Source of the DNA: a virus
DNA: 45,273 nucleotides
IMG/VR virus record: IMGVR_UViG_3300050821_005745
Location: 1-45,273 of that record
Direction: 5' to 3' (one strand)
Positions within the stretch are counted from its first letter, which is position 1, and every line of letters starts with the position of its first letter. The notes under the pieces are model-generated. The model was not told the DNA's origin and did not search any database. It saw only the letters and a program-made list of their open reading frames with translations. This document shows, piece by piece, positions 29,280 through 36,994 of the stretch. A program made the translations under genes and the position numbers.

Positions 29280-30662
29280 TTAAGCCTGCTTGAGGTAGTT
29301 GACTGGGTGCGTTCCCGCATCGACCAACTGGGCGTCGTAACGACCGAAGCTCAGGAGACCGACTTCGCCGAAGTCTGCGTAACGCTCGACGAGGCGCATG
29401 ATGCTCATTTCCTTCACGCGACGGATGACGTACTTGCTCAGGTCGCCGTAGATCACGGTCGGGTTGCCCGAGAAGAACACTGTCGGAGTGAACGGTGAAC
29501 CACCGCCGCTCGGCATTTGCTGGTTGATGGAGTACGGCACACCCAAGATCGTGTCTGGGGAGTTTGCCGCCATGCCCGGCAGCCACAGTGGGCGACCGAA
29601 CTTATCGAGCAGCAAGCGTGCGGACTGAAGAACCTGATCGTGGAACACGAAGCGGGTCTTCGGGCGGTTACGGTAGCTGGGGTCAACCGAGTGAATCAGG
29701 TTGACGTAGTCGTCGTAACCGATGGAGTTGGTGCCAGTCGCGCCCGTGCCGTCTTCACGGCTGGAGCCGACTGCGGTAACTGGGGAAGCGCCCGAAGCCG
29801 CGATGGCGGTCAGGATTCCGGTTGCCTTCTGGTTGCCGTCGCCAGTGGTGAAGTCGCGGTTCAAACCACGGCCCCAACGTACTGCGAAGGCGTCCTTAAC
29901 GATGTTGTCAATGGACTCAAACGAATCCTGCTCAAGTTCGAGAGAGACGCGGACGATGTCGCCCGTGTACTTCCACGCGCCGAACAGCACGTGGCTGAGG
30001 TTGACGTCGTTCTCGGAGACAGGCTGCGATTCACCGATCACGTGAGCCGCTTGCGCGGTGTCGTTCTCGGTCGGCCAATACATGGGGTTGCCTGACGCCG
30101 TGTCGATGATGCGGCAGTCGCCCAGCATGTTGCCGTATGCCTTGGTCGCAACTTCCAGTTCGTACTGGAAACCTTGCGGAACCAAGAACGATGAGTTGGC
30201 GGTAAAGGCGGTGATTGGGTTGCTGATCGCATCCTGCGCACGAACTTCGTACGACGGAATGTTGGTCAGACCGTTGCTGCGGTCGCGGTGCATCACCTTG
30301 CGGGACTCTTCGTTGCAGTCGCCGAAGATGAAGTCGTAGAAGCCGCGCTTCTCTTTGTAGATGCGCTCGTTGCGCTGCTCGGTGGTCTCGTAGCGGTAAC
30401 GCTTGTCGAGCTTCTTGCTGTCGATTGAGGCGTTCTCGGGTGCGCCGTTGCGGGCGGTACGAAGCTCCTCGTCGATCTTCTTCATGCGCTCGTCGGTCGC
30501 CTCAAGCTTGCGTGCTTCCTCAAGCTTCAGATCGACGTCAGCCATGATGGTGTCGAATTTCTTGGTTTCGTCGGCAGTGCGGTTTTCCTTCGTCTGAAGG
30601 GCACGCGCCTCTTTGTACAGATCGTTCGCTTCGGAACGGAGTTGAACTGATTTTACGGACAT
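29280..30662 (-). CDS. Major capsid protein, HK97 fold
   Basis: Main head shell protein, 460 residues. The N-terminal 110 residues form a charged coiled coil (SVQLRSEANDLYKEARALQTKENRTADETKKFD), the HK97 delta domain used as internal scaffold and removed by the protease. The mature part has the HK97 pattern: PQGFQYELEVATKAYGNMLGDCRII, GDIVRVSLELEQDSFESIDNIVKDAFAVRWGRGLNRDFTTGDG, and the P-domain and A-loop segments to KYVIRRVKEMSIMRLVERYADFGEVGLL. GGGAGC lies before the ATG. A structured leader and its own promoter-like element lie upstream. Confidence 0.95.
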   Translation of the reverse strand: MSVKSVQLRSEANDLYKEARALQTKENRTADETKKFDTIMADVDLKLEEARKLEATDERMKKIDEELRTARNGAPENASIDSKKLDKRYRYETTEQRNERIYKEKRGFYDFIFGDCNEESRKVMHRDRSNGLTNIPSYEVRAQDAISNPITAFTANSSFLVPQGFQYELEVATKAYGNMLGDCRIIDTASGNPMYWPTENDTAQAAHVIGESQPVSENDVNLSHVLFGAWKYTGDIVRVSLELEQDSFESIDNIVKDAFAVRWGRGLNRDFTTGDGNQKATGILTAIAASGASPVTAVGSSREDGTGATGTNSIGYDDYVNLIHSVDPSYRNRPKTRFVFHDQVLQSARLLLDKFGRPLWLPGMAANSPDTILGVPYSINQQMPSGGGSPFTPTVFFSGNPTVIYGDLSKYVIRRVKEMSIMRLVERYADFGEVGLLSFGRYDAQLVDAGTHPVNYLKQA

Positions 30663-30743
30663 GATATTGCTCCCGTTTAGGGCAGGGGTGCCCAATTTGC
30701 TTTTGCTTAGCCGGGAGCCGTCCACTGGAAGGCTTGCTATGCT

Positions 30744-30915: not shown

Positions 30916-32070
30916 TTACATATTTAGTGCGGTTTCGACGAGGCGCAGGCGCATGGCGCGTCCGCCGTCGTCTTCTTTACCCTCTTCGACTTCCTTGTCT
31001 ACGGCCTTTTCGAGGCTGTTGAGCAGGGCGATTAGAGCCTTGACTTCGGTCTGAAGGTCGCCCTTGCCGGAGTCGAAGCTGTCAAGGTCGCCGTCGTCGA
31101 TGGAATCCTTGGCGTCGCCGAGGCAATCCTCAAGCGAGTCCATACACTCCAGAATCTTCGGCGCAAGCGCGGAGATGTCCGCGACCTTGTCGTGGCGCTT
31201 CTCGAATGCCTCTTGCAGAGCCTTCTCTTCGGAGACATCGACGCCAAACTTCTTGGCTGCGGAGACGATCTTCTTGTAGACCGCGTCCTTCTTGTCTGCC
31301 GAGATGCCCTTTGCCTGACCCCAGCGTGCGAGAGCGTTCTGGGCATGGCTCTTGTCGTGTACTGGGAACTTCCATGTGGATGTGTCGTCCGGGTCGCCGA
31401 CATAGGCGAAATCGGACATTGCGACGTCCTGACCGCTCACGCTCTTGGTCTTCCCGGCGCGGGTCGCCATGTGCTTAGCGACTTCCTCGGGGATGCCGTC
31501 TGGGAACAGGCTGCGAAGCTCAAGCGCGGAAACGCCCTTGTCGCGTGCCTTGACTTCAGTTGAGGGATAAGCTGGGCTGGTGACCACGGAAACGTCGCGC
31601 AGGTCAACGTCGTTAAGCTCACGAACGAGCGCCTGCTTGTCTTCGACGCCTTCGTACTGCACATCCTTGAAGCCGCCGTCGCGGGCGTCCATCCAGCGGT
31701 CGCCCTTGGTCACGAAGCCGAAGCTGCACTGCTCCATGATGCCGTTGCGCACGTTCTCGTGCAGGTCGTTGGCTACCTGAGTGTTCGGCAGCGTCACGCG
31801 GAACTTGAGTCCAGTCTTGTCGCTGGTCAGTTCAAGGTTCTTGCCGTTGCGGCCCACAATCTGGTTCGGGTCGTGGTTGATCAGCATCTTGACGTCCTGA
31901 TTCTCTTTGACGGCACGGTCAAACGTGCCTGGCGCGATGATTTCGTTGAAGCCGCCCAAGTCTTGTGACATCTTGCCGTACTTCGCCGCATAGCCAGTCA
32001 GAACCTTCTTGCCGTCCTGAGTCTCTGCGCGAACTTCACTTGCGATAAACCTACGTTCCATCTTGGACAT
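30916..32070 (-). CDS. HK97-family prohead protease with C-terminal extension
   Basis: Maturation protease (U35/HK97 gp4 family), 384 residues. The protease domain covers about residues 1-170: it opens MSKMERRFIASEVRA, and contains GFNEIIAPGTFDRAV. The likely catalytic His66 is in LINHDPNQIVGR and Ser116 in EQCSFGFV. The VTSPAYPSTEV segment typical of the family follows. The extension carries a DUF6582-like section (FAYVGDPDDTSTWKFPVHDKSHAQNALARWG, about 207-260) and an acidic C-terminal helix that may act as scaffold. AGGGAGAGG precedes the ATG at 32070. Confidence 0.9.
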   Translation of the reverse strand: MSKMERRFIASEVRAETQDGKKVLTGYAAKYGKMSQDLGGFNEIIAPGTFDRAVKENQDVKMLINHDPNQIVGRNGKNLELTSDKTGLKFRVTLPNTQVANDLHENVRNGIMEQCSFGFVTKGDRWMDARDGGFKDVQYEGVEDKQALVRELNDVDLRDVSVVTSPAYPSTEVKARDKGVSALELRSLFPDGIPEEVAKHMATRAGKTKSVSGQDVAMSDFAYVGDPDDTSTWKFPVHDKSHAQNALARWGQAKGISADKKDAVYKKIVSAAKKFGVDVSEEKALQEAFEKRHDKVADISALAPKILECMDSLEDCLGDAKDSIDDGDLDSFDSGKGDLQTEVKALIALLNSLEKAVDKEVEEGKEDDGGRAMRLRLVETALNM

Positions 32071-32083
32071 AATGCCTCTCCCT

Positions 32084-34558
32084 TTAATACTCAACATGAA
32101 GCTGGTAGCTTCCGTCGTCCATCCGCCAAACGCTCATGACACCGCCTTGCGAAAGTTCTGCCTTTGTTTTCAGCAAATTCTTGATCGGATCGTCGTGCTC
32201 AATGCTGTCGCTCGTGGTCGCGATGTTCATGCTGTGGAGCACGAGAGCGACCTGCTGTTCTGGTCGCGCTTCCTTGATGTAGTCCAGCGCACGCTTGCCG
32301 CGACCCTTGGCAAAGCTGTTCAGGCTGTCGCCGTTCGGGATCGACGCATCTGGGTTATCGAGGTACGGCTTAAGCTCGGACTCGGGCTTGCCGCTCAGAT
32401 CGCCGATTCGCATCGGACGAAGTTCCTGATCCTGTTGCACCTTGGTGTTGAACGCCTCGGCGATGGGCTGCGCTGTCTGCACTGCCCGCTTCAGGTTGCT
32501 TGAATAGACAGCCTTGATAGCTGGGGCGTTCTGCTTCAGCCATGCGGCTGCCTTCGTAGCTTGCTGCTGACCCTTGTCGTTCAGATCAACGTCGTTATCA
32601 CCGTGCATGTTCCCGCTGTCTGTGACAGCCGTGGCACCGTGCTCGACGATGTAAGCGACGGGCTTACCGCCGACAGGCTGGGAGCGGAACTGCTGCATCT
32701 GCGCCCATCCCATTTCCTTGAACGCCGCCGCGCCGATGGCGCGAACTGCTCGGTCAAGTTCATGCTTGACGCTCTCGGATGTCCACGATGCGAAACGTTT
32801 TGCCATGCCGCCCGTGTAATCCTTCACGAACACCGCAAGTACGTCGTCCTTGGGCTTTTCCTGCCTGATTTGCTTTGACACTTCACCCAAAAGATCGGCG
32901 GAAATAGCCGTCAAAACTGGCGCGAAAGTGTGGAATAGCACATCGGAAGTCGGCTTTTTCTTAGCCAAAGCCCGTGAGAATGCGTCCTTAAAGATCGGAA
33001 AGTAGACCGCCTTGTACCGTTGCTGGAGCACATCCGGCAGATAAGACGTCGGTGGAGTCGGTGGATTGTCGCTGTGGAAGCTTCCGCCGCCGCCGAAGTC
33101 CATGCTGGGCGCTCCGTTCTTACCCGGCTCGGTCGGATTGGTGCCTGGCGCGGTCGGATTCGCGGGATTGCTGCCTGGCGCGTTAGGTTCTGGTGCCGGA
33201 GGCGGTTCGTCCGCACGCATCACGTTCACTGGGACGTAGTAAGCGTCGCCGAATTCGTCGGTGCGCGGGTTCTTGCGTTCCATCGTGCGGATGTCATTCG
33301 GTGAGAGTGCGCCCGTGCTAAAGCCTGTCGCGTAAAACTTCTGTCGGCTATCGGCGTCTGGACGGATTAGGTTGTCAATGTCGAAGTCAAAGGTGTACTT
33401 CTTTCCAGGACGTCCGATCTTCTGCGGCTCGTCAAGAATCTTGGCGCGGAATTCTTGGTTGATGGCTTCGAGCCACGGGAACAGGCAGTATTGGTAAAAC
33501 TCCTGCGCGAACTGTTCTGTGTTGGCGCGTGAAGTCTTCTCCATGATGCCGACCATGTGACCTGGCACGCCGAAGAGCGTGCAAAGCTCGTTGGCTGTCG
33601 CTTGCTCGGTCTCAACGAACTGACCTTCGTTCGCCTTGATTTCAATTGGCTCAATTTCGATGCCAGAGGTGAGCACGATAGGACGAAGCATGTTGTCGCC
33701 GCCCATTGCTTCCTGATAAGACTTGCGTGCGGCGTCGCGCTGCTCTTGGCTGAGGTTGCCCGGCAGCTTGATGATCATCGACGTGCGTCCGCCGTTGCCA
33801 AAGAACTTTGATCCGAACTTTTCCATAGCAAGCTTGCGACCCACGGCTTGGCGTGCGTACTCAATGGTGTCCATGCCGATGCGACCGTCAAGCGACAGAC
33901 CCGGCAGGTGCAGAATGTTCTCGGGCAGGATCACGCGCTCGGCGCGTGTGAGACCAGCGGCGTCGGTCTCGCTCATGTCATAGTCTTGCATTCCGTCAGT
34001 AGTCACATAGACAAGCTGACCTGCGGGATAAAGCTTTGCGCCTTCCCATCCGCCATCAAGCGTCAACGGCTTGAGCAAGCGATACGGGCGCGTCTTTCCG
34101 GGGTTGCGAGGATAGAGACCGAGAACCTCGCCGCCCTTAGACCAGACGATTTCTATGTAGCCGTTGCCCCACAGTAGTGCGTGAGCGACCCATGTCTCCA
34201 TCAGGGTCTTGTGCGTCATCTCAGGGTTGGGGCGTGAGTGAATCTTGTCGTAGTCAGGATGGTCGTCGGCAACCGTGCGGGTCTTGTGTCCGTTGGCTCC
34301 TGGCTTTACTTCGTAAATGTGAAAGGGAAGAGATGCGATAGTCGAGGACACAACTTCGACGCAACGCTTGATGACGATGGTCTGAAGCGCGGTAAGTTGG
34401 CTGACGCGGATACCGGAGTCGGTGCGACCGCCGTTGTAAATATCCAGCAGCCACTCGGCAGGGAACGACAGCGGCGTCTGCGGATTTTCAAGCGACGAGC
34501 GGACTTCGTAGTCCAAGAATGAGGCGCGTTCGCTGCTGAAGAAGTTTCTGATTCCCAT
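32084..34558 (-). CDS. HK97 portal protein fused to a histidine-phosphatase-like domain
   Basis: Portal ring protein and DNA gate, 824 residues. Residues of about 1-430 are an HK97-family portal (FHIYEVKPGANGHKTRTVADDHPDYD, HALLWGNGYIEIVW, the helical LQSYQEAMG section and ANTEQFAQEFYQYCLFPWLEAINQEF). A proline-glycine linker (NPTAPGTNPTEPGKNG) and a helical stretch lead to an additional domain at 633-824 that matches the histidine phosphatase superfamily. It contains EHGATAVTDSGN (canonical RHGET), DNDVDLNDKGQQQA, VYSSNLKRAVQTAQPIA and LHSMN (canonical SHG). His640, Arg691 and His775 are kept, but the RHG arginine is Glu639. Fusion to a portal is unusual. Confidence 0.85.
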   Translation of the reverse strand: MGIRNFFSSERASFLDYEVRSSLENPQTPLSFPAEWLLDIYNGGRTDSGIRVSQLTALQTIVIKRCVEVVSSTIASLPFHIYEVKPGANGHKTRTVADDHPDYDKIHSRPNPEMTHKTLMETWVAHALLWGNGYIEIVWSKGGEVLGLYPRNPGKTRPYRLLKPLTLDGGWEGAKLYPAGQLVYVTTDGMQDYDMSETDAAGLTRAERVILPENILHLPGLSLDGRIGMDTIEYARQAVGRKLAMEKFGSKFFGNGGRTSMIIKLPGNLSQEQRDAARKSYQEAMGGDNMLRPIVLTSGIEIEPIEIKANEGQFVETEQATANELCTLFGVPGHMVGIMEKTSRANTEQFAQEFYQYCLFPWLEAINQEFRAKILDEPQKIGRPGKKYTFDFDIDNLIRPDADSRQKFYATGFSTGALSPNDIRTMERKNPRTDEFGDAYYVPVNVMRADEPPPAPEPNAPGSNPANPTAPGTNPTEPGKNGAPSMDFGGGGSFHSDNPPTPPTSYLPDVLQQRYKAVYFPIFKDAFSRALAKKKPTSDVLFHTFAPVLTAISADLLGEVSKQIRQEKPKDDVLAVFVKDYTGGMAKRFASWTSESVKHELDRAVRAIGAAAFKEMGWAQMQQFRSQPVGGKPVAYIVEHGATAVTDSGNMHGDNDVDLNDKGQQQATKAAAWLKQNAPAIKAVYSSNLKRAVQTAQPIAEAFNTKVQQDQELRPMRIGDLSGKPESELKPYLDNPDASIPNGDSLNSFAKGRGKRALDYIKEARPEQQVALVLHSMNIATTSDSIEHDDPIKNLLKTKAELSQGGVMSVWRMDDGSYQLHVEY

Positions 34559-34561
34559 AGG

Positions 34562-34822
34562 TTATTTCTCCGAGAGCGGGTTCGCGGGCATTCCGTCCAG
34601 CTTGTGGAACATGAGGCGAACTGAATTGACGATGTGAAATTCAACGTACTTGACGACGACGTGGAGAAGACCAGACCACGCGAGGCAGATGAAGCTGCCG
34701 TAAAGAGCGAGAGCGGTGAGACCGCCGAGGCGTTTGAGACCCCAGCCGAGTAGACCGAGACCGATGAGAGCAAGCAAATCTTTGTAGTTGAAGCTGAACT
34801 TGGGCTGCTTTGAATCCGCCAT
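34562..34822 (-). CDS. Small membrane protein near the portal
   Basis: Protein of 86 residues with two likely membrane segments: LLALIGLGLLGWGLKRLGG and ALALYGSFICLAWSGLLHVVVKYV. The start MADSKQPKFSF at 34822 is 3 bp downstream of the terminase stop. It occurs between terminase and portal, where no membrane protein is expected. No family recognised; a role in membrane association of packaging or in superinfection is conceivable but unsupported. Confidence 0.7.
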   Translation of the reverse strand: MADSKQPKFSFNYKDLLALIGLGLLGWGLKRLGGLTALALYGSFICLAWSGLLHVVVKYVEFHIVNSVRLMFHKLDGMPANPLSEK

Positions 34823-34824
34823 GA

Positions 34825-36558
34825 TCACCAAACCTCGATTAGGTTGCCGCTAAATTCTTGCGTCGGGTTCGCGTTGTAGCGTCCGATTGCCATGATCGCC
34901 GCGACGATGCCGTCGATCTTCTCGACGGACTTTTCTTTGTCCGGCTTGACCAACGCGGTCGCGCCTTCGTGAACGACAAGGTTGTCCGCCATCCACGTGA
35001 GCACCGGGTTGTTCAGGTGAACCAGATCGCCAGTCAAGGTCAGCCTCAGCAGTTCCTTGGTTGGCATGTTCATGGAGACGTCGCCCTGACGGTGCAGCAC
35101 CATCTCGAAGCCGTCCTGATCCTTAAGCTGCCCGACGATCTGGGTCGCGTTGTAGGGATCGAAGGCTATCTCCTTGATTAAATACTGCTGCCCCAGCGAC
35201 TTGATGCGTTGGCGGATGAAGTCGTAGTCGATGACGTTGCCGGGTGTGGTGAGGATGAAACCTTCCCTAACCCACACTTCATAAGGCACTTTGTCGCGCT
35301 TCGAACGCTTCTCCACGTTGTCGCCAGGAATCCAGAACCACGGCATCAGGAGAATTTTGTTGCCGTCTTTGAACACGAGAACGAACGCAGAAATGTCAGT
35401 AGTTGTGGACAAATCGAGACCACCGATGCACTCCTTGTTCTTGAGGCGCTCAAGCGCGGCGAGGCGTTCCTTCAGCGGGTCGGCGTCTTCCTCGATGCCG
35501 CCGCACTGCGCCCATTTGTCCATGGGGAGGTAGCGGGTTTCCTGCTGCGTCCAGACGTTGAGGTGTTTTCTGAGGAAGGTGTTGAGCGCGGACGGCGTCT
35601 CTTTTGCCTTGGCGGCTTTACGCCGTAGATCGTCAATCTTGACGGAGACTCCGAGGCTGGGATTGCACTTAGCCCACTCTCGTTCGTCATCCCAAGCAAG
35701 GTACTCTTCCTTACCGACAACCTTGTCCAGACAAGCAACATAAGCAAAAAAAGCATCGCTCCCGTCATCTCGCAGGTTCGACTCAAGTACCTTCTGAGCG
35801 TAAGTGTGCTGAAGCCAACAGATCGAAGTGCGGCTAACTCCCGCCGTTGTGATGACAAATAGCAGCGGATTCCGGCGTGAGCCAGTCGCAGTATCGAGAA
35901 CGTCATAGAGCGCCCGAGTCGGGTGCTCGTGTAGTTCGTCAATGAGCGCACAGTGGATGTTGAGTCCGTCAAGGGTGGAATCCTCCGATGCCAGTGGCAG
36001 GAACTTGGAGTTGGTCGCTTGCACGACCAGCGCGGAGCGGTAATCCTGAATCTTCTTGGCGAGGCTTTCGTTCTTTGACCGCATGGCGACGGCTTCGTCC
36101 CAAACGCGACGTGCCTGTTCCTTGGTGCAAGCAGCGGAGTAAACTTCAGCGCCTGGTTCGCCGTCAGCGACCAGCATGTAAAGCCCAATGATGCTCAGCA
36201 GCGTGGACTTGCCGTTCTTGCGGGGAACTTCGATGTAGGCTTCGCGGAATCGGCGCGTGCCGTCCGCACGCTTCCAGCCGAAGATGCAGGACAGGACGAA
36301 CACCTGCCATTCAAGAAGCTCGATAGGGCGGTTCGCCCATTCACCGATGGAGGGTTTGCAAAACTTGGCGAAGTCAACCACGCGCTGCGCGGCGTCTTCG
36401 TCGAACCACAAGCCGCGTTCGTTCGCAGTCTCAAGGTCGTCGAGGTGACGCTTGCAGGCGAGGATGATGTACTTGGAGGCGGGTATGGTGCCGTCAACTA
36501 CGTCAGTTGCGTAGCGTAGCGCCCGTTCCGCTGCTGAGGAAGGCATCGAGTGGGTCAA
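34825..36558 (-). CDS. terL: Terminase large subunit
   Basis: Packaging motor, 577 residues, cutting concatemeric DNA and driving it into the prohead. The ATPase Walker A is VPRKNGKST at 111-119 and Walker B is CALIDELHEH at 203-212. The nuclease domain has GGLDLSTTTD at 379-388 (Asp382), AFDPYNATQI and a C-terminal KIDGIVAAIMAIGR segment, as in the P27-paired terminase family. It overlaps the small-subunit gene by 56 bp, and an alternative start MPSSAAERAL lies 12 bp later. Confidence 0.95.
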   Translation of the reverse strand: MTHSMPSSAAERALRYATDVVDGTIPASKYIILACKRHLDDLETANERGLWFDEDAAQRVVDFAKFCKPSIGEWANRPIELLEWQVFVLSCIFGWKRADGTRRFREAYIEVPRKNGKSTLLSIIGLYMLVADGEPGAEVYSAACTKEQARRVWDEAVAMRSKNESLAKKIQDYRSALVVQATNSKFLPLASEDSTLDGLNIHCALIDELHEHPTRALYDVLDTATGSRRNPLLFVITTAGVSRTSICWLQHTYAQKVLESNLRDDGSDAFFAYVACLDKVVGKEEYLAWDDEREWAKCNPSLGVSVKIDDLRRKAAKAKETPSALNTFLRKHLNVWTQQETRYLPMDKWAQCGGIEEDADPLKERLAALERLKNKECIGGLDLSTTTDISAFVLVFKDGNKILLMPWFWIPGDNVEKRSKRDKVPYEVWVREGFILTTPGNVIDYDFIRQRIKSLGQQYLIKEIAFDPYNATQIVGQLKDQDGFEMVLHRQGDVSMNMPTKELLRLTLTGDLVHLNNPVLTWMADNLVVHEGATALVKPDKEKSVEKIDGIVAAIMAIGRYNANPTQEFSGNLIEVW

Positions 36559-36994
36559 CGTCCTTTGGCTTTTCCACCTTCAGACGAGACCGCGAGGATG
36601 GGGTACAGCCGAATTCTGCAAGCATGGACTTCATGCTCTTGTAAGCTTTGTCGCGCTCCGCGACGTATGGACTAACCTTGGTGAGCACCTGACCTTTGAT
36701 GCCAGTGGCTTCGTAGGTCATGCCATGCTTCTTGAGATAGATCATGGCGTCCTTCCATTGGGCGTAGGCTTCGCAGTAGAGCATCAGCGCGTCGCCGTCA
36801 GCGACGGTCAGCACACCCATGTTGAGAAGGATCGGGACGATACGCTTCCACGCAACCTTGGCGTAGCGCGACATGCCGGAAGGCATCGGCGGTTCGCCGT
36901 GCTGCGGCTGCGGCTCAAGATCATTGAGCGGACGACGACCGGGGTTGCCCTTGAGCTTCTTCATCGCTGTCGGTTGTGGTGCGGGGCCGGGCAT
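36503..36994 (-). CDS. terS: Terminase small subunit, P27 family
   Basis: DNA recognition subunit of the packaging enzyme, 163 residues. The P27-family pattern is visible: PTAMKKLKGNPGRRPLNDLEPQP, then WKRIVPILLNMGVLTVADGDALMLYCEAYAQWKDAMIYL, and closing VSPYVAERDKAYKSMKSMLAEFGCTPSSRSRL. The ATG overlaps the stop of a 52-residue gene upstream (TGATG). The nearby HNH nuclease and small palindromic region fit a cos-type packaging system. Confidence 0.92.
   Translation of the reverse strand: MPGPAPQPTAMKKLKGNPGRRPLNDLEPQPQHGEPPMPSGMSRYAKVAWKRIVPILLNMGVLTVADGDALMLYCEAYAQWKDAMIYLKKHGMTYEATGIKGQVLTKVSPYVAERDKAYKSMKSMLAEFGCTPSSRSRLKVEKPKDVDPLDAFLSSGTGATLRN

Follow-up and report, generated by a model that had tools for sequence, protein, structure and literature searches.

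A histidine-phosphatase-fold domain with an altered active site fused to the portal protein of an uncultured phage

The C-terminal part of the portal protein encoded in IMG/VR record IMGVR_UViG_3300050821_005745 (45,273 nt, analysed in full and referred to here as the window) has the fold of histidine phosphatases (HPs), and two residues of its active site differ from those of typical members of this superfamily. The fold, the fusion to the portal, the conservation and modularity of the domain, the active-site residues that it has lost, and the location of its relatives in head modules are established here. With moderate confidence, we consider these 193 residues to be an accessory domain of an acid-less phage HP type, which is attached to an ordinary HK97-type portal, would be carried in the virion, and may act on or bind a phospho-ligand.

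The portal-HP gene and its surroundings in the window

The presence of genes for an integrase and a tape-measure protein identifies the window as DNA of a temperate, siphovirus-like phage. The fusion gene belongs to an HK97-type module of the order terminase small and large subunits, membrane-protein-like ORF, portal-HP, S78 protease, and major capsid protein (Table 1). The start of the prohead protease gene (32070) is located 13 nt past the portal stop and is preceded by a ribosome-site-like sequence, GGGAGAGG. In the protease, the DUF6582 match extends over residues 229-282 and is followed by an acidic helical tail.

Table 1. Features of the portal-HP gene and neighbouring genes of the window.
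Feature	Position	Strand	Basis
Portal-HP fusion gene, 824 aa	32084..34558	-	Single ORF; architecture recurs in L002, L003, L007
HK97-type portal domain, residues 63-427	33278..34372	-	PF04860 (Phage_portal), phrog_12, TIGR01537
Pro/Gly-rich linker, residues 451-505	33044..33208	-	Sequence; high dN between homologues
Helical portal C-terminal region, residues 506-628	32675..33043	-	Alignment with L135, L137, L138
HP-fold domain, residues 632-824	32087..32665	-	PF00300, phrog_12933, AlphaFold2, Foldseek PDB
Glu639 codon (GAG), replaces Arg of RHG	32642..32644	-	Invariant in 8/8 EHG sequences
His640 codon, nucleophile equivalent	32639..32641	-	Alignment
Arg691 codon, second conserved Arg (LKRA.QTA)	32486..32488	-	Alignment
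Pro715 codon, replaces catalytic Glu	32414..32416	-	Alignment; all EHG sequences
His775 codon, second conserved His (LHS)	32234..32236	-	Alignment
Terminase small subunit	36503-36994
Terminase large subunit	34825..36558	-	PF20441/PF03354, phrog_9
Short membrane-protein-like ORF	34562-34831
Prohead protease (Peptidase_S78) with C-terminal DUF6582	30916..32070	-	PF04586 E 1.8e-46, PF20223 E 1.8e-7
Major capsid protein	29280..30725	-	PF05065 E 9.8e-42

The assignment of the N-terminal part of the protein to HK97-type portals is based on profile matches of residues 63-427 (PF04860, E 2.9e-89 in the Pfam search; phrog_12, E 2e-105 in the PHROG search; TIGR01537, above its curated cut-off), as well as on the position of the gene between those of the large terminase and the prohead protease and capsid. 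The linker that follows is the fastest-evolving portion of the protein in terms of dN between homologues, and the region of residues 506-628 is predicted to be helical in a low-confidence AlphaFold model. This full-length model is poor outside the HP domain (pLDDT 42), and was therefore left out of any inference on domain arrangement.

Residues 636-787 match the His_Phos_1 family (PF00300) with an E value of 4.5e-28 and a score of 98.7 bits, which, given the Pfam cut-off of 21.7 bits, is far above chance; the domain also matches phrog_12933. AlphaFold2, supplied with an 8-sequence alignment of residues 631-824, predicted a confident HP fold (pLDDT 91.2, pTM 0.89; confidence was lower, 61-75, for the remaining four models), and a Foldseek search of the PDB with this model retrieved glucosyl-3-phosphoglycerate phosphatase (GpgP), phosphoserine phosphatase, and PhoE, with TM scores of 0.77-0.83 and E values of about 1e-12. 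Both fold and profile thus place the domain in branch 1 of the HP superfamily. The first-pass annotation of this DNA, which had matched the portal C-terminus to this superfamily by its motifs and had named an unrelated predicted fold as evidence that would speak against it, is in this respect borne out by the profile, the model and the PDB matches alike.

The same annotation had pointed to other portal fusions as a check and to a frameshift joining two genes as a possible source of error. The ORF is free of internal stop codons across its 824 residues, and the same fusion is present in three further IMG/VR contigs, two of them from one metagenome (L002 and L003) and one from another (L007). 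The HP domains of these contigs are 47-82% identical (L007 48%), and all retain EHG, LRP, NG[DE], and LHS. The dN/dS ratio of the HP part is 0.14-0.24 in pairs that include the window and up to 0.33 over all pairs, somewhat higher than that of the portal core yet well below 1, so that this part of the fusion is under purifying selection. The probability that a frameshift or misassembly fused two separate genes is negligible, considering the recurrence of the fusion in four contigs, the codon-position GC, which is continuous over the portal/HP junction, and the purifying selection.

Active-site residues and the phage HP clade

Inspection of the active site confirmed E639-H640-G641, R691 within LKRAVQTA, and L774-H775-S776. 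The earlier reading is correct in these points: Glu stands where RHG has its Arg, LHS forms the second histidine motif, and the catalytic His, one Arg and the second His are kept. A second loss had escaped the first-pass annotation: in the alignment with PhoE (1ebb/1h2e), Glu639 lies over the Arg of RHG, and Pro715 lies over the catalytic Glu of 'LRE'. With branch 1 HPs (PF00300; PhoE, CobC, GpgP, phosphoserine phosphatase) the domain shares the fold, the order and spacing of motifs, the nucleophile-equivalent His (H640), the second Arg (R691), and the second His (H775), the last three being invariant in 8/8 EHG sequences. It differs from them in its fusion to a portal, in Glu639, which is present in 8/8 EHG members, and in Pro715, which occupies the position of the proton-donating Glu.

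Sequences with EHG were searched for in viral contigs and bacterial genomes with the use of a DNA pattern that encodes E-H-G-x-T and keeps the spacing of HP motifs. Beyond the fused set, the viral contigs yielded only a free-standing 202-aa gene (L011/L098). Of 77 matches in bacterial-genome contigs, most were chance frames and the true HPs were only those of L048, L072, and L074, all of which adjoin virion genes. The portal-like protein of these free-gene phages (L072, 591-3101, and also L048) contains, by eye, a zinc-ribbon-like CxxC...CxxC insert; that of L072 matches no PHROG family. Small proteins resembling GNAT acetyltransferases by eye are encoded near virion genes in L072 (256-711), L074 (5085-5498), and L095 (5404-5859, -); those of L072 and L074 are without a Pfam match.

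The same pattern with a CGN-encoded Arg matched at least 120 stretches of viral contigs, and true HPs accounted for 78/80 among the matches listed. Such sampling favours fixed spacing and CGN arginine, and all viral relatives found are uncultured contigs. Direct protein searches with the HP domain recovered few relatives, and none in bacterial genomes; the fixed-spacing DNA patterns succeeded. Records of isolated phages gave only generic HP matches (24-41% identical), many of them in unannotated records that are possibly host DNA.

The catalytic acid is lost in 59/59 sampled members of the phage HP clade. In the 51 viral RHG sequences of the clade, its position is occupied by Pro (23), Ala (12), Thr (12), or Ser (4), and in 8/8 EHG sequences by Pro. 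In contrast, Glu is retained in 15/15 sampled viral HPs outside the clade; in 29 cellular HPs, a sample of a single phylum, Glu (16) and Asn (13) occur there. The Arg of RHG is present in all 29 cellular HPs, which were sampled by profile search, whereas the 66 other viral HPs do not test this residue, because they were picked by the RHG pattern. The profile of phrog_12933, a family of phage proteins, matches 8/8 EHG domains and every phage HP scanned, but it is broad, as it also matches acid-bearing viral HPs such as that of L145. The latter belongs to a separate viral set of 318-332 aa proteins with RHG and the acid (L145, L157, L177, L191, L202, and others); the C-terminal domain of the L145 protein matches phrog_7878 (heptose kinase/adenylyltransferase type). 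Within the phage clade, Ser replaces the second His in 12 of the 51 RHG sequences; a subclade that keeps RHG shows this change ('CSGSN'; L206, L163, L175, L178, L213, L218), its L206 member being portal-fused.

In a quick maximum-likelihood tree, in which the cellular sequences are all of one phylum, phage HPs are placed apart from cellular ones (clade support 91). The fused EHG domains fall within a clade of 12 rows that they share with L174 and with free genes next to portals (support 96). This tree drew the Arg-to-Glu change as two events, but a single EHG clade is also compatible with the data (p 0.42). A one-off substitution is excluded, as Glu is found in 8/8 EHG sequences belonging to two phage groups. 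EHG is a rare variant within the acid-less phage HP clade and a conserved trait of its subfamily.

Modularity and gene context among relatives

Three sister portals of 591, 559, and 553 aa (L135, L137, and L138, respectively) share with the window protein the portal core, which in L135 is identical at 185/397 positions (47%), and the helical C-terminal region. They terminate at the point where the HP domain starts, which indicates that this domain is a modular add-on, and the existence of such close portals without it implies that portals of this type can function in its absence. In all three, the protease gene directly follows the portal gene, and no HP gene was found elsewhere in these records, several of which are partial. 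The window protein thus carries, like portal-fused effectors, an extra domain that is modular among relatives.

Fusion of acid-less phage HPs to portals occurred more than once. Among the matches listed, three more portals are fused to an RHG HP of phrog_12933 (L174, 817 aa; L206, 814 aa; L209, at least 763 aa at a contig edge), and the junction sequences of L174 and L206 differ. These are the 3/50 sampled HP-bearing viral records with a PF04860 portal, and the HP is fused in 3/3; the PF04860 match of L209 is slightly below the cut-off, but its portal matches phrog_2662. A single clade of all portal-fused HPs, and with it one sole fusion event, is excluded (p-AU 1e-46).

The acid-less phage HP clade sits in head-packaging gene clusters. 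A terminase, portal, or capsid gene is present within the same few kb in at least 47/84 sampled HP loci, the count being a lower bound obtained with a 15-protein query set on partial loci. Non-fused HP genes adjoin those of terminase, capsid, or portals of other families. They directly abut the portal gene in L154, L144, L184, L217, and L072, stand in the order TerL-HP-portal in L163, L178, L194, and L168, and follow the capsid gene in L199. The order in L154 is portal-HP-scaffold-like-capsid, its portal and capsid being identified from where they lie and from their resemblance to related loci, without a PHROG match. In L165, the HP is embedded in a 1,899-aa multidomain protein (-), which resembles published polyvalent proteins; its HP (RHG, RPW) is at residue 356 and is joined to a stretch resembling, by eye, a zeta-toxin-like P-loop kinase.

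Possible role of the domain

The first-pass annotation had offered a phosphoesterase, a phospho-binding domain, or a purely structural add-on. This set of options still holds, and is narrowed by the modularity, the conserved EHG, the loss of the acid, and the membership of the domain in a phage HP clade of head-packaging modules with repeated fusion to portals. Since similar domains adjoin or are fused to the DNA-loading machinery in many uncultured phages, the HP domain is probably a virion cargo or tool; the association with head genes, the repeated portal fusion, and the modularity all fit a virion-carried accessory. Portal C-termini point toward the capsid interior, on which grounds we propose that the virion holds the domain in its interior. 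Made together with the portal, it could reach up to 12 copies per head, either tethered through the Pro/Gly-rich linker or freed by the prohead protease encoded by the adjacent gene. The portal normally remains in the virion, so that ejection would require release of the domain, which could then exit with the DNA and act early in the host. Location in the virion, release, ejection, and substrate are in this scheme what we infer.

As for the reaction, His640 and Arg691 are retained, but the phosphate pocket would have its charge reversed by Glu639, and with Pro715 the site would have no proton donor; classical phosphomonoester hydrolysis by the EHG domain is for these reasons unlikely. In our preferred view, the domain acts on, or binds, a phospho-ligand for which the donor would not be needed, e.g., phosphohistidine, an acyl phosphate, or a nucleotide signal. 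Phosphohistidine could be a substrate type suited to an acid-less site. The phosphohistidine phosphatase SixA is also a small branch 1 HP and retains RHG, but the window domain shows no specific similarity to it past the fold, and TIGR00249 is below its cut-off.

The Arg-to-Glu change alone might have abolished catalysis entirely. That the EHG domain is a catalytically dead binding module, such as a ligand sponge, a decoy, or a docking point for a partner from the virion or the host, is a less likely alternative. Every EHG member has substitutions at two of the five usual active-site positions, the second His is lost as well in 12/51 sampled RHG phage relatives, and two Arg and two His are stated to be required in all HPs (PMC10218301). 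There is also a precedent in flea salivary acid-phosphatase-like proteins of the HP superfamily, in which catalytic residues are likewise replaced and which, devoid of the catalytic His, are reused to bind amines and leukotrienes, although these are eukaryotic proteins of branch 2 that have lost other residues (PMC10728186). However, the nucleophile-equivalent His, the second Arg and the second His, for which a binder has no obvious need, do not vary among EHG sequences.

An enzyme of assembly only, which would remove phosphate from capsid, scaffold, or terminase, or act on them in another way, while virions are being produced, and would play no part once they infect, would agree with the portal location and the head-gene context. 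We regard it as improbable, since the HP is missing from closely related sister phages whose portal, protease, and capsid are the same (several of their records being partial) and we know of no phospho-regulation of HK97-type assembly. Similarly improbable is a solely structural add-on, i.e., a capsid-interior spacer or DNA-organising domain of incidental fold origin: 12 copies would lie close to the DNA entry site and the active site is altered, but the invariant positions of the domain include active-site residues, and the phage HP family also occurs as free-standing genes.

The reading that we prefer, a virion-carried accessory, has parallels in pyrophosphatase, 2H, PBECR, and Nudix domains on portal or MuF proteins, for which packaging and injection have been proposed (PMC5512222, PMC9503650). 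These effectors, as far as the relevant parts of both reports describe them, are likewise enzyme-like, modular, portal-fused domains encoded in the head module; those parts do not mention the HP fold, and the window domain differs in its altered active site, its packaging and injection being putative. Portal-fused enzyme domains are thus a known theme, and our search of the literature for HPs connected with portals or with phage defence found nothing relevant and no HP example of such a fusion. The HP domain also had no match among known defence-system families.

It is tempting, though doubtful, to extend this to all acid-less phage HPs as widespread, unrecognised virion-carried effectors, free or portal-fused, among which the EHG subgroup, where Glu has taken over the position of the phosphate-binding Arg, would carry out a reaction unlike that of known HPs. 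The HP fold joins the short list of enzyme-like domains carried on portals, and the results point to a large uncharacterised phage HP clade in the head-packaging module whose active site is changed in a defined way: all sampled members have lost the acid, and one group has Glu instead of Arg. This clade supplies candidate early-infection factors, and the natural series of RHG, EHG, and second-His-less forms is suited to testing how an HP site gets rebuilt.
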